Below, in pieces: positions 11,117-45,306 of a DNA stretch of 64,000 nt (position 1 is its first letter; every line of letters begins with the position of its first letter). Position numbers and translations under genes: made by a program. This DNA is from Thermoanaerobaculia bacterium (GTDB lineage Bacteria; Acidobacteriota; Thermoanaerobaculia; Multivoradales; J023), in the NCBI GenBank assembly GCA_028066595.1, contig JALCBJ010000020.1:1-64000 (forward strand), given 5' to 3'. The notes under the pieces are model-generated. The model had not been told where the DNA came from. It saw only the letters and a program-made list of their open reading frames with translations, and ran no database searches.

Positions 11117-13902
11117 GGTCCGGCGTCCGCGGATTCTTCTTCGTCGGCAATCGGTCGCAGCTCCGGCCGGAATACGAAGCGTTGAAAGAAGTAGGCGAGA
11201 GCCATCAGGCTGACACCGAGGCCCACCAGCGAGGCGACTCGCCACAAACCTTCGAGCTCGGACGTGTCGTAGAGGAAGACTTTCAGGGTCGCAGGGAGCA
11301 GGACACAGAGAGATCCCCAGCGCACGATCTTGTGGCGGCGTCCGAGCAACGCCAACGTGACGCCGAGGACGATCCAGGCGATGGAATAGGCGTAGTTCTC
11401 GGCGACTCCGACGGCTCCGCGGTCGAGGAATCCTGCATGCTCCGAGGTGGCGCGAAAAGCATGTCGTACCTGGAGGCTGACGAGGGTGAAGAGATCGAGC
11501 AGCAGAGCAGCTGAGAGGATCTTCTGGAGCGCACCATCCACGGGTAGGGACCGCTCCTCGCGACGCAGCGCGAGGAGCACCAGGAAGAGAAGGATCGCCG
11601 GTACGCCGTAACCCCAGAGGAGGCCGTTGAATACCGGCACCGTTCCCACAAATTCGTGGCGAAACAACGGGTTGAAGGACAAGCCGAGCGACAGGCTGCC
11701 GAGAACCACGGTGAGTACCGACAGGGCTCTACCACCCCAAGACAGTTGCGGGCGCGGCCAACGGCGTGCGGCCAGGACACCGACCCAGGCCATCGCCGAC
11801 CAGGCCACGAGATACGTCGCCCACTCGAAGAACAGCGAGTCAGATGCGTCGAGGTCGCCGGGGAAAAAGTACTGACGTACCTGAAGCGTTACGAACGCGA
11901 AACCCAGTCCCAACGTCAGCCAGCGAAGCGCCTCGGCAAAGCGCCGGTCGTTCTGCTGGTCCGACCAGCGGGCCGCGACGAGGAATGCGACGATCGGGAT
12001 GCCGTAGCCGTAGAGAAGCCAGTTGACGATCGGCATCGTGCCGATGGGGTAGGTCAAGACGGCGGGGTTGAGGAGCAGTCGCAGAGATGTGGCCGCTGTC
12101 AGGAGCCATGCGAGATGACGTAGCACCGGGACGTCGAGCCGGCCCGAGAGCCAGAGCAGTGCTGCGACCTCCAACGCCCACGACACCGTCAACCACTGCC
12201 GCTCCAGCTCCAATGGCAAGGCCATGCTGAGCAACACGGTGGCGCCCACCGCCATGGCTGCGAGGGGCTTCTCCATCGCGCGGTCGGCTCGGCGAGCTCT
12301 AGCGAAAGGCAGGCAGCCAGCGACGAGGATCGCTCCCAGCGCCGCGGCCACCAGGCCCCAGTGCCAGCTGTCCAGCCCCAACTCCGATTGGCCCGCCACC
12401 AGGAGCAAGAAGAAAGCGACGACAACCACCGCGCTCAGCGATGCCCAGGTTCCGGGGTACTTCGAGGGCTTGCGGAAGAAGGTACCGCGAGCGAAGAGCC
12501 AGGCAAGTCCGGCAAACAATACGCCGAGCCCGATGTGGGTAGCGAGGAACGTACCGAGATCGTCGGACGTGAGGTTCTTCTGCCACGACCCCAGCTGGAG
12601 AGTGACCACGAGTGAGGCCAACCAGGCGAGAGGTTGATAGCTCTCGTCAAGCCTTGCCAGCACGTAGCAGGCCACGGCCAGAAGCGTCAGCACCGCCCAC
12701 TCCGTCCATCCGAAGCCTGCCCGGAACGTCAGTGTCGCGGCTGCCAATTGCCCGCCACCCAAGGCGCCCCAGCCAACCATTCGAGATATGGAGACTCCGG
12801 CGAGCTTTGTCGTCGTCTCTTCTTCGTCTCGGCCGACGTAATGGAAGCAGAACGACGCGACCGAAGCGAGCAGGAAGAGGCCGGCCCAGATCGCGTCCTT
12901 CGGCAGCAGACTGCCTGCCTGCCCGAATCCGACGAACGCGAAAAACCACAGGAAACCACCGCCCAGCGTGAAGATGCCGAGGGAGCCCCAGGCGCGACGT
13001 CGCGAGACGATGACAAGACCGAGTTGGAGCAGCAAGAGGTAGCTGAAGAGCGCCCACGGTCGGGTGTCATCGCTCGACACGAGAGCGGGTGTCACGAAAC
13101 CGCCCACGAGTCCGAGGATCGCCACCAGATAGCCCTGGCGGAGTGAAAGGAGAACCGCGGTGGCGGTGGTCAAGGCCATCAGCGCGAAACCGAGCCACCA
13201 GGGCACGAGAGCGTAGAGATTGGCTGCGGCCCAGAACGCCACGAAGAGAGTCGCGATGCCGGCCGCGGACAGGCCCTGCGCCACATAGCCCGAAGACCGT
13301 CGGAGCCGGTCACCAGCGACCAGGAGCGCCACTCCGCCCAGGATGCCGGCCGCCACCCGTGCAGCCGGAGTGATCCAGCCACGGTCGAAGGAGAGCTTCA
13401 CCAAATACGCCGCGGCCAGCGTCAGAGCGATGGCGCCCAGCCACACGGGAAGGCGGGTCCAGATCTTCTCTTCCAGGCCGGTCCACCAAGGATCCTGCGT
13501 TGGCTCGAGCTCACGCGCGGCCGGCCCAGGCTCTGCCAGCTCAGGCGCGGCCAGCTCGGGCGTGGGCGGCGTGCGCTCCGCTGGCGGTGCCTCCAGCGCG
13601 GCGGGCGAATCGGCTTCGGGAGTCGGCGGACGTGGCTCGCTGACGATCGCTTCGGACGGAAGCGGCTGTTCGACCTCTGCCGCCCTCGTCGCCGGCGCTA
13701 GATCGGCCGCGGTCGTAGTCATCGCCTCTTCAGGCTGGTCCTCGATGGGGTCCGGTGTCCGGGACTCGACCTGTCTAGAAAGATGCTGCAGCTGAGTTTC
13801 CACGGCTTTGACGCGGTGGCTCAGCTTGACGAGAAACACGACAAGGGCCAGCGGGAAACCGAGGAGGATCGCGCAGCCGAAGAAGCCGAGAAGAGTTTCC
13901 AT
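11113..13902 (-). CDS. DUF2339-family large polytopic membrane protein
   Basis: A 929-aa integral membrane protein with more than twenty hydrophobic helices. The N-terminus has one helix (METLLGFFGCAILLGFPLAL), a short coiled coil (KAVETQLQHLSRQVES) and a Pro/Ala/Glu-rich linker of about 100 residues. The repeated membrane domain then begins near LEEKIWTRLPVWLGAIAL. This matches DUF2339, whose helices recur in pairs with short loops such as NWLLYGYGIP and NGLLWGYGVP; that repeat is visible twice here and supports internal duplication. ATG at 13902 is preceded by AAGG about 9 nt upstream; starts at 13941 or 13962 are possible. It is the first gene of the six-gene minus-strand unit. Confidence 0.85.
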   Translation of the reverse strand: METLLGFFGCAILLGFPLALVVFLVKLSHRVKAVETQLQHLSRQVESRTPDPIEDQPEEAMTTTAADLAPATRAAEVEQPLPSEAIVSEPRPPTPEADSPAALEAPPAERTPPTPELAAPELAEPGPAARELEPTQDPWWTGLEEKIWTRLPVWLGAIALTLAAAYLVKLSFDRGWITPAARVAAGILGGVALLVAGDRLRRSSGYVAQGLSAAGIATLFVAFWAAANLYALVPWWLGFALMALTTATAVLLSLRQGYLVAILGLVGGFVTPALVSSDDTRPWALFSYLLLLQLGLVIVSRRRAWGSLGIFTLGGGFLWFFAFVGFGQAGSLLPKDAIWAGLFLLASVASFCFHYVGRDEEETTTKLAGVSISRMVGWGALGGGQLAAATLTFRAGFGWTEWAVLTLLAVACYVLARLDESYQPLAWLASLVVTLQLGSWQKNLTSDDLGTFLATHIGLGVLFAGLAWLFARGTFFRKPSKYPGTWASLSAVVVVAFFLLLVAGQSELGLDSWHWGLVAAALGAILVAGCLPFARARRADRAMEKPLAAMAVGATVLLSMALPLELERQWLTVSWALEVAALLWLSGRLDVPVLRHLAWLLTAATSLRLLLNPAVLTYPIGTMPIVNWLLYGYGIPIVAFLVAARWSDQQNDRRFAEALRWLTLGLGFAFVTLQVRQYFFPGDLDASDSLFFEWATYLVAWSAMAWVGVLAARRWPRPQLSWGGRALSVLTVVLGSLSLGLSFNPLFRHEFVGTVPVFNGLLWGYGVPAILLFLVLLALRREERSLPVDGALQKILSAALLLDLFTLVSLQVRHAFRATSEHAGFLDRGAVGVAENYAYSIAWIVLGVTLALLGRRHKIVRWGSLCVLLPATLKVFLYDTSELEGLWRVASLVGLGVSLMALAYFFQRFVFRPELRPIADEEESADAGP

Positions 13903-43096: not shown

Positions 43097-43303
43097 GCCG
43101 GACTGAGAACCGACCTTTAGCGAGCACGCACCTGGATCTTGGTGCCTTCGGCGGCCAGGACGCTGTCTCGTGCCTCCAGCGCGTCCATTCCTCTGGCTCT
43201 TCGGATAGCTCACCTCGTCGCTGATGTGAATGTCGTGGCCAGGGACGGAAGATTCTCAAGCTGAGGCTTTCTTCCGATCAGAGATTTTGAAATAATGGGA
43301 GTT
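43097..43303. other. AT-richer intergenic region with a possible short remnant
   Basis: On the minus strand a 23-codon frame (about 43123-43190) encodes a protein-like C-terminus ending GTKIQVRAR. A second minus-strand frame further upstream also looks protein-like, but stops separate the two. This may be the debris of a decayed gene. The last 60 bp are AT-rich and probably hold the promoter of the TPR gene. Confidence 0.25.
43291..43296 (+). promoter_or_regulatory. -10-like box AATAAT near the start codon
   Basis: AATAAT ends 7 nt before the ATG at 43304, in an AT-rich stretch. TTTCTT at 43268-43273 is at the right distance for a weak -35. Confidence 0.35.
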
Positions 43304-44431
43304 ATGAGCAAGGATATCTCTGAAAATCGCAAATATGAGAAGAATAGCGAAACGGCCGTCGAGCGCCAGCGAGCCCGCGAGCGAATGCGCTACGTCGCGC
43401 CCGGGACGGCGGGAAAGGTACTCACGCACCATCGATATTGGACCGTACAGTTCCTAGAGTTGTATCTGGAGCGCTGCGACGAGATCGCCTTTGACGTGCC
43501 GGCCGACGCCTACCTGCTGGCACAACATGCTCCCGAGGTGGCGAGGAGGACTCGAGTTGGTCCCGAGGCCCGGGAGTTCGACACTCCACTCGACAAGCTG
43601 AGCGGGATCGTCATGGCGCTGGCGGTGAAAGGTAGCTGCTGCCGCGCACACGAGGAGCTGGCCGAGGCAGCGTTGTGTTTTCGGCGTGCCTTCGAGGGAG
43701 TTCGCGGTCGAACTGCGTCCACCTCCGTCATGGCCGAGCTCCATCGCCGGTATGCTGCGTTGCTCGCTGTCGGCCGAGAACAGGAAACCGCCCTCCAGCA
43801 TCTCGAGCAGAGCCTCACGCTCGCGGACCAGGCAGGAGATCGAGACGCTGCCGCCGACGGCCTTGCCCTGCGTGGCTACTTGCAAAGCGAGGCGCGACCT
43901 GCAGAAGCTGTTCTCGACTTCATACAGGCATCACGGTTGGCAGATCTTCGCTCGCGGCGGGGCGAGCGGACTGCACAGGCGGCGCTCTACAATCTGATCG
44001 CTACGCTCGCGATGGATTCCGTCGGCCTTCGAGACCAGGAGACAGCATTGAAGCTTCTCCAAGGCTTGAAGGACCATCTCAAAGGGACTCCAACGAGCGT
44101 TCGGAAGATGAAGGTACTTTGGATCGAGGGTCTGATTCTGGCGAACCTAAAGATCGATCGGCACGCCGAACGCCAGCTGATGAAGGCCCGCAGCGGATTC
44201 GAAAAACTCCGGCAGCCAGTCGACTTTGGCGTGGTCTCCATGGATCTCGCCAAGTTCCATCTGAGTCGAGGAGCTGAGGCTGCTTGCCGTTCCCTGGCTT
44301 CGGAGACTTGGGACACACTGAAACGACTCGGTCCTGATCCGGAACAATTGGAGATCATTCGGATCTGGTGCGAGAAGGGGGCGACGGTGCACGGCACCGA
44401 TCGAGCGCGCCGAGCACTTCTCGACCGATGA
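43304..44431 (+). CDS. TPR-repeat protein of unknown function
   Basis: A 375-aa soluble protein made almost wholly of helical repeats. Examples are VQFLELYLERCDEIAFDVPA, AHEELAEAALCFRRAFEGVR, RYAALLAVGREQETALQHLE, AVLDFIQASRLADLRSRRGE and AERQLMKARSGFEKL. No DNA-binding or enzymatic domain is evident. The overall pattern, with a first helix layer describing LYLERCDEIAF, resembles TPR proteins common in Acidobacteriota; that is recalled, not checked. ATG at 43304 fits the AATAAT box; another ATG lies at 43295. It converges with the small secreted protein gene, and the structured element lies between them. Confidence 0.7.
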   Translation: MSKDISENRKYEKNSETAVERQRARERMRYVAPGTAGKVLTHHRYWTVQFLELYLERCDEIAFDVPADAYLLAQHAPEVARRTRVGPEAREFDTPLDKLSGIVMALAVKGSCCRAHEELAEAALCFRRAFEGVRGRTASTSVMAELHRRYAALLAVGREQETALQHLEQSLTLADQAGDRDAAADGLALRGYLQSEARPAEAVLDFIQASRLADLRSRRGERTAQAALYNLIATLAMDSVGLRDQETALKLLQGLKDHLKGTPTSVRKMKVLWIEGLILANLKIDRHAERQLMKARSGFEKLRQPVDFGVVSMDLAKFHLSRGAEAACRSLASETWDTLKRLGPDPEQLEIIRIWCEKGATVHGTDRARRALLDR

Positions 44432-44522
44432 CAAACCGGCACCGGGAACAGGAGAGCTTCGTCGGTTCGATACCGGCAGCCGTCTCCTGCACCCAGGCGC
44501 CAGTGCGATGTTGACTAGAAAC

Positions 44523-44673
44523 AACCAACCGGGTTCGAGATGACGAGGACCTGACAAGGCGCGCGACGAGGAATAGCAGCGCTATCCGAGGAGGCGCGAC
44601 ACTGCCAGGGCCTCGAGATGCCCTGAGTTGGTGGATGGGATCAACCAACACCGCGCAAGGACAGAGGTTGGTT
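44523..44673. other. Structured intergenic element, candidate ncRNA or palindromic repeat
   Basis: AACCAACC (44523-44530) is perfectly complementary to GGTTGGTT (44666-44673) and could close a ~150-nt structure. Inside are three further stem-loops: GG-a-ATAGC/GCTATCC (44570-44587, loop AGC), CAGGGC/GCCCTG (44606-44611 and 44620-44625) and GTTGGT/ACCAAC (44627-44632 and 44644-44649). The last strand can also pair with 44667-44673, so two alternative folds exist. It lies between convergent genes and touches the stop codon of the small secreted protein. Strand of action unknown. Confidence 0.5.
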
Positions 44674-45032
44674 CATCCGTTGGGGATGATCAGAGGACCT
44701 ACCTCGTCTTCAGGATCCGGTTCGGGGCCCTCTGAACCCGACGCATGTTCCGGGCTGTCCAACGGCTCTCGCTCGTCTTGAGGAAAGGGCTCAGCCGGCC
44801 GGCGAGTGGCGAAGTTCCTGGCGGAGAGCTCGCTCGCGGAGCTTGTCGAGTTCGCCGTCTGCCACTCCGTCACTCGGCTCAGTCGTTGCCAGAGGTCTCC
44901 GAGGAAACTGTGGACCACGTTTCCGGGACTATCGTCCGAGATCCAGCTGGCGAAGGTCTGAGGTGCAGCGGCCAGGGCCACGCTCAAAGTAAGACCGAGT
45001 ACGAGATGTCTCGCGTTTCTCTTCGACGTCAT
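44673..45032 (-). CDS. Small secreted protein with conserved-looking GPLIIPNG end
   Basis: A 119-aa protein with a signal peptide (ARHLVLGLTLSVALAAAPQT followed by FASW). The mature part has a helical segment (NVVHSFLGDLWQRLSRVTEW), a low-complexity middle, and an acidic Pro-rich tail ending DEVGPLIIPNG. The coding case is good: AGGAG lies 7 nt before the ATG, and composition matches secreted proteins. I recall short exported acidobacterial proteins ending in similar G-x-I-x-P-N/D-G motifs, but cannot verify this. Function unknown. It is convergent with the TPR gene across the structured element. Confidence 0.65.
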   Translation of the reverse strand: MTSKRNARHLVLGLTLSVALAAAPQTFASWISDDSPGNVVHSFLGDLWQRLSRVTEWQTANSTSSASELSARNFATRRPAEPFPQDEREPLDSPEHASGSEGPEPDPEDEVGPLIIPNG

Positions 45033-45306
45033 TTCGCGTCTCCTGAGGGTCAGTGATGCGCCATTGCATTACTGATATTCAAGATTAAGTGACGTATAGG
45101 TCGAGAAATACGGTGAAATAAGAGATTTTTTCCGAAATTGCTCGAATCAACCAACCGCCTGGAAGGTTGCAGAGACGTCGATCGGACCTTGTGGTCGGTG
45201 TCATTGGGCTGAGCGACACGGGAGTCGGCGGACTTGCCGATCCCTCCGTGAGCCTCAGGCGAGTGACATTCGCTGTCGTACGGTTGGCGGAGGAGGAGCT
45301 ACGGTT
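45033..45306. other. AT-rich divergent intergenic region
   Basis: About 60-140 bp upstream of the small secreted protein gene the sequence is clearly AT-richer than its surroundings, with runs such as gattttttccgaaatt. A stem-loop CAACC (45152-45156) / GGTTG (45165-45169) occurs here. AACCAACC (45149-45156) repeats the motif that closes the structured element at 44523-44673. A promoter for the minus-strand gene is likely here, but I cannot pick boxes with confidence. Confidence 0.35.

Follow-up and report, generated by a model that had tools for sequence, protein, structure and literature searches.

The 64,000-nucleotide stretch of DNA analyzed here (hereafter, the window) contains, between two convergent gene 3' ends, a 160-base copy of a CTAG-ended hairpin repeat (44500-44659, plus strand). 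On one side, a gene encoding a 378-aa protein (43295-44431, plus strand) has its 3' end toward the element; on the other side lies a convergently oriented ORF of 119 aa (44673-45032, minus strand). Neither product has a Pfam match. The 378-aa protein belongs to a family that has undergone expansion; as many as 19 matches occur in one related genome (the genomes named are G001, G003 and G006). The repeat was delimited with a covariance model based on 25 diverse elements, and the window copy was aligned with 48 other elements. This model (R1) finds exactly one match in the window, a full-length one at 44500-44659 (95.8 bits, E 3e-19). The earlier note had placed a structured element at 44523-44673; the structure is real, and its boundaries are shifted to 44500-44659 by the model. 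The occurrence of AACCAACC at 45149-45156, also pointed out in that note, does not correspond to a second unit detectable by the model in the window.

The element consists of three parts, all read on the plus strand. The 5' arm, including a terminal inverted repeat region (44500-44555), pairs with the 3' arm, which includes the other terminal inverted repeat region (44607-44659); both arms were placed from alignments A2 and A4 and from the predicted pairing. Between them lies the conserved apical core (44556-44606), AAGGCGCG-CGACGAGGAATAGC-AGC-GCTATCCGAGGAGGCGCGACACTG, which has GA-rich mismatches as well as a bulge on the 3' side and is common to all subfamilies and to the Gemmatimonadota elements. 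Both terminal CTAGs of the window copy have decayed, to CCAG on the left and CAAG on the right.

Among the possibilities raised previously for this locus was an intergenic repeat, and the genome-wide search proposed along with it bears this out: the element is not single but belongs to a dispersed, multi-copy family. In the genome of the window, BLAST detects 34 places, most of the matches covering the central positions 45-113 of the query, and the covariance model yields 64 matches; 7 of these read an already counted copy on its other strand, so that about 57 places remain. Extracted with their flanks, the elements of this genome are about 165 bases long, start with CTAGTG and finish with CACTAG. 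They form subfamilies A, B and C, plus one resembling the window copy; the arms differ between these groups and the core CAAGGCGCGCCGACGAGGAATAGCAGAGCTATTTCGAGGAGAAGCAACGCCG is common to them. Several copies of the repeat and of its insertion sequence (IS) partner, described below, lie less than about 200 bases from contig ends (for example, those of C6, C74, C97, C110, C127, C141 and C150); the family therefore probably breaks the assembly of this genome, and the copy numbers are lower bounds. One element (L018, contig C153, approximately 95142-95288) is a chimera that joins the 5' arm of subfamily A to the 3' arm of subfamily C, which suggests recombination between copies. Another repeat, with the end CTGGTGGGATGGACTCCCC, interrupts the terminal arm in each of three elements located at contig ends (L009, L030 and L041), as if it were targeting them.

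Beyond this genome, BLAST finds the element in 10 of 40 relatives, and the covariance model, at E up to 0.001, in 71 of the 396 sampled Acidobacteriota genomes (18%), representing 50 of 210 genera. Intact members are nearly all 164-168 bases long, and nearly all of the matches listed across the phylum span 164-170 bases. Among named genomes, the exact core pattern matched Acidobacteriota and Gemmatimonadota MAGs, including the complete Longimicrobiales chromosome OX639991.1, which contains 60 BLAST matches to the element. No match was found in plasmid and phage collections, each searched with one query, and no description of the present family in the open-licence literature.

Intact members have CTAG at both termini and form a single end-to-end hairpin, and substitutions across the family keep the pairing. 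The cross-lineage alignment is nearly gapless, the core always beginning some 58 bases in from the 5' end, and RNAalifold produces one hairpin of 45 pairs, 35 of these with both sides changed. Paired cells account for 89.6% of the total, compared to 71.0% in shuffled alignments, and the covariation score is 0.497, compared to 0.165; by either measure, 0 of 500 shuffles reach the observed value, a count that is not a probability because the shuffles leave relatedness in place. When the partner is shifted by one column, pairing falls to 31-44%. The outer helix, made up of the terminal inverted repeats, comprises 19 pairs, with 91% of the cells paired and 14 pairs changed on both sides; deriving the pairing from Watson-Crick pairs only gives 62 pairs across 49 elements.

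The arms vary in sequence between lineages while remaining complementary. The core, about 55 bases with GA-rich mismatches, is conserved across phyla, more so than the arms, and the invariant positions of the 49-element alignment fall within the core, several of them in the mismatches and the bulge (GA-C-GA against GA-G-GA; AAC). The palindrome is complementary along its whole length, and either strand can be folded. Many elements of the genomes G068 and G069 (L202-L214) are longer, about 230-253 bases, combining the usual arms with an enlarged, branched apical part that includes two extra GC-rich hairpins. In resident subfamily-A copies, we counted 43 non-wobble disruptive changes and 3 compensations; given that these copies decay with few compensations, the constraint is on active lineages and not on copies in place. 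GU wobbles exceed AC wobbles in the model-selected set of elements, and elements gathered without any RNA model (GU 68, AC 59) display no clear strand bias. The comparison of GU with AC does not support strand-specific selection on RNA, the excess being unclear in the pre-model sample and thus possibly a selection bias.

Insertion of an element can be observed at one comparable locus. The filled site in G069 reads cagtccaCTAG[...]CTAGAGCCGCC, and the empty site in G059, which is 98% identical to G069 there, reads cagtccaCTAGAGCCGCC, with a single CTAG; G065, G066 and G068 likewise have a single CTAG at this locus. The insertion is precise and duplicates either CTAG or the TA inside CTAG, a 2-base and a 4-base duplication being indistinguishable because the element would start with C or G in both cases. 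For an empty site at the window locus itself, the relatives offer no comparable locus, as they carry only diverged homologs of the upstream gene (best identity 40%). In the genome of the window, an A element is nested in another element (L014), and its removal, judged by eye, restores the expected core length.

The target is a rare sequence: CTAG occurs 53 times in the window versus 112 expected. Gene context was assigned to 50 copies with a simple gene caller. Convergent genes flank 13 of these copies and divergent genes 3, and the copies between co-directional genes are split 12 versus 12 between the two orientations; such randomness speaks against a function in cis that depends on the strand. 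The terminal CTAG contributes the TAG stop of a flanking gene in 22 of the 50 copies; other CTAG sites of the loci examined do so in 6 of 51 cases (Fisher p 3e-4). The copies would collect at gene 3' ends because CTAG is depleted and often contains a TAG stop codon.

A likely source of transposase is evident in OX639991.1, where the inverted ends CTAGTGTAGTGTCCG, 1.2 kb apart, flank a gene for a 382-aa IS630-family transposase (NF033545, 254 bits). The type-1 elements of this chromosome have the ends CTAGTGTTGTGTCCC, near-identical to those of this intact IS, with differences at some positions. In the genome of the window, IS-like ends CTAGTGTGCCGATTGACAAGTTC are located at contig ends, and a variant IS end CTAGTGCACCGTTTGAC is identical to the subfamily-A terminus over 17 bases. 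One IS-end copy runs into an ORF with a helix-turn-helix region resembling IS630 (E 9e-7, below the model cut-off), and G027 has a comparable end, after which comes the C-terminal part of an IS630-like transposase. The body of the IS is unassembled in the genome of the window, its transposase being seen as fragments alone, and the single intact DDE_3 protein of this genome has no CTAGTG-type ends on inspection. Elsewhere in the same genome (L138, contig C168, approximately 12200-13120), a CRISPR-like array with the repeat GTTTCAATCCGCGCCTCCGCGCGGGAGGCGAC adjoins a DDE_3 (IS630-type) transposase gene.

These features are those of a miniature inverted-repeat transposable element (MITE). The family is short, multi-copy and devoid of a transposase gene; it has complementary, CTAG-ended terminal inverted repeats and, at the one comparable locus, has inserted precisely at CTAG, duplicating TA inside it (G069 versus G059, G065, G066 and G068). 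An autonomous IS with matching ends is present in OX639991.1, and the genome of the window has the 17-base end match together with the transposase fragments. The window copy is, in all likelihood, a non-autonomous transposable element of the IS630/Tc1-mariner type that is old and has decayed. This assignment is favored by the roughly 57 dispersed places, the empty site in G059 and the single CTAG in the three other genomes, the nested insertion in L014, the intact IS with near-identical ends in OX639991.1, and the IS ends in the genome of the window that match subfamily A and, in one copy, continue into the IS630-like helix-turn-helix region. The excess of copies with a TAG stop in CTAG, the covariation of the whole hairpin across lineages, and the core-less derivatives of OX639991.1 (three elements of 65 bases, at unrelated places, with one common internal deletion) point in the same direction. 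On the other side, the genome of the window offers only fragments of the transposase and one intact DDE_3 protein with its ends unplaced, and the IS and MITE ends of OX639991.1 are not fully identical. Furthermore, the covariation extends far past the part that a transposase would need, transposition alone does not account for the conservation of the core between phyla, and correction of palindromes by template switching could mimic compensatory changes in the arms.

The evidence strongly suggests that IS630-family transposases move the element in trans. They would bind the terminal repeats, excise the element and insert it at the TA within CTAG. In published work on ISY100, this transposase family duplicates the target TA, and a study cited there reports that an IS630-associated transposon favors TA in CTAG (PMC2170065). 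Active copies, we infer, would have to form the whole hairpin of about 165 bases with its GA-mismatch core, as single-stranded DNA or RNA, and this hairpin would serve some step besides cutting and pasting; resident copies, such as that in the window, would decay free of the hairpin constraint. A more speculative reading, of limited likelihood, is that a structured motif, as RNA or as single-stranded DNA in folded form, has been carried through at least two phyla on successive IS630-family transposases, swapping the transposase-binding arms and keeping the core, the length and the fold, with the core aiding the spread of the element in a role other than transposition.

What the core does can be read in several ways. 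The hairpin could be needed as DNA, with the core of an extruded or single-stranded element read by a host or transposition protein during replication or transposition. The palindrome that is complementary over its full length, with both strands foldable, and the random orientation of the copies fit this possibility, to which we give some, although limited, credence. Its difficulty lies in the three 65-base elements of OX639991.1, which moved without a core: the sharing of one deletion at unrelated places implies that the core was not needed for their movement, and thus, judging from these sequences, the core seems to be dispensable for movement in this one genome.

It is somewhat unlikely that the mobile element carries a structured non-coding RNA with a function of its own, the plus-strand hairpin binding a protein through the GA-mismatch core to the benefit of the element or the host. 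Covariation over the whole length, the concentration of the most conserved positions in the core mismatches and bulge, the enlarged, branched apical domain that the same arms carry in G068 and G069, and the location of copies at the 3' ends of genes, which would bring them into transcripts, are all compatible with such an RNA. However, orientation relative to co-directional genes is random (12 versus 12), the GU excess of the model-selected set is unclear in the pre-model set (68 versus 59), pairing is not kept in the resident copies, and Rfam has no match in the window at the gathering score.

We similarly doubt that the element has no function past transposition, its arms being complementary through binding of one transposase and template-switching correction, and its core being merely inherited. 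The resident copies do decay freely (43 other disruptive changes versus 3 compensations) and the core-less derivatives do move; nevertheless, the core is better conserved than the arms over two phyla, and its mismatches have been retained rather than corrected.

The earlier note had based its interpretation on four mutually complementary strands, all of which are present on the plus strand: AACCAAC at 44523-44529 in the 5' arm; GTTGGT at 44627-44632 in the 3' arm, where the next base is G such that the strand has six bases, not seven; AACCAAC at 44643-44649, also in the 3' arm; and GTTGGTT at 44667-44673, which is flanking DNA outside the covariance model match and the element. Counted on both strands, AACCAAC occurs 8 times in the window versus 2.5 expected, a number reached by 1 of 100 shuffles. 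The region 44500-44690 is more stably folded than its shuffles (z -2.2 on the plus and -3.9 on the minus strand), and the first strand is predicted to pair with GTTGGT at 44627-44632 with a probability of 0.97 on the plus and 0.87 on the minus strand. On the plus strand, the third strand and the flanking GTTGGTT can pair with a probability of 0.42, so that the flanking strand competes only in part. The alternative pairing is thus predicted to be physically possible in the window copy, yet it is no part of the element. Exclusive folds of the kind seen in switching RNAs, as envisaged previously, do not hold for the family, the alignment of which is one continuous hairpin with no competing helix conserved, and a riboswitch-like RNA was rejected on the same grounds, the alternative helix drawing on flanking DNA. 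No intrinsic terminator (a GC-rich hairpin followed by a T run) or other terminator-like site was found in 44350-45100, at odds with the proposed bidirectional terminator. That this locus acts in cis as a switching RNA or a bidirectional terminator is therefore highly improbable, notwithstanding the plus-strand pairing and the convergent genes, given the external fourth strand, the lack of a terminator-like site and the single fold across the family. Identity with a known non-coding RNA was likewise rejected: no Rfam family matched in the window at the curated gathering score, and a search of four loci at E up to 5 gave just two weak, unrelated matches.

Among the described repeats, compared here by description, ERIC, Correia and RUP resemble the present family in type only. 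RUP of Streptococcus pneumoniae is a small palindromic repeat with termini similar to those of an IS630-family element in the same genome and a TA target; it is 107 bp long, has been proposed to be mobilized by IS630-Spn1 and was described in one species (PMC2229807), whereas the present family differs in sequence and length and, with its conserved core, extends over several genera and two phyla. ERIC, described in enterobacteria and relatives, and Correia/NEMIS, described in Neisseria, are also short and mostly intergenic, with TA termini, target duplication and long stem-loop transcripts (PMC2229807, PMC10969869); in the present family, unlike these, the arms covary between lineages around one core. 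IS630/ISY100 insertion sequences share the duplication of the target TA (PMC2170065), and the matching ends found here lie beside IS630-family genes, but the present element encodes no transposase. The kind of element is known, an IS630-type MITE, but it is unusual in how deeply it is conserved, in its fixed geometry and in its conserved core. In the reviews consulted, bacterial MITEs appear as families of particular species or groups, whereas the architecture described here, with CTAG ends, a near-fixed length of 165 bases, covarying arms of very different sequence and a core with GA mismatches, is found again in Gemmatimonadota and in 18% of the Acidobacteriota genomes sampled. The purpose of the MITE interior becomes testable through comparison and experiment, the covariance model can be used to annotate many intergenic regions, and the family helps to account for contig breaks, and for the 3' ends of genes, in these genomes.

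In OX639991.1, a second subfamily, with the ends TAGCAGYCCGTGGA, forms head-to-tail arrays (L120, approximately 3738487-3739346; L121, 4079350-4079874; L122, 207147-207895). The units of these arrays are 171, 174 and 249 bases long, and those of 249 bases contain an additional AT-rich, hairpin-like stretch.
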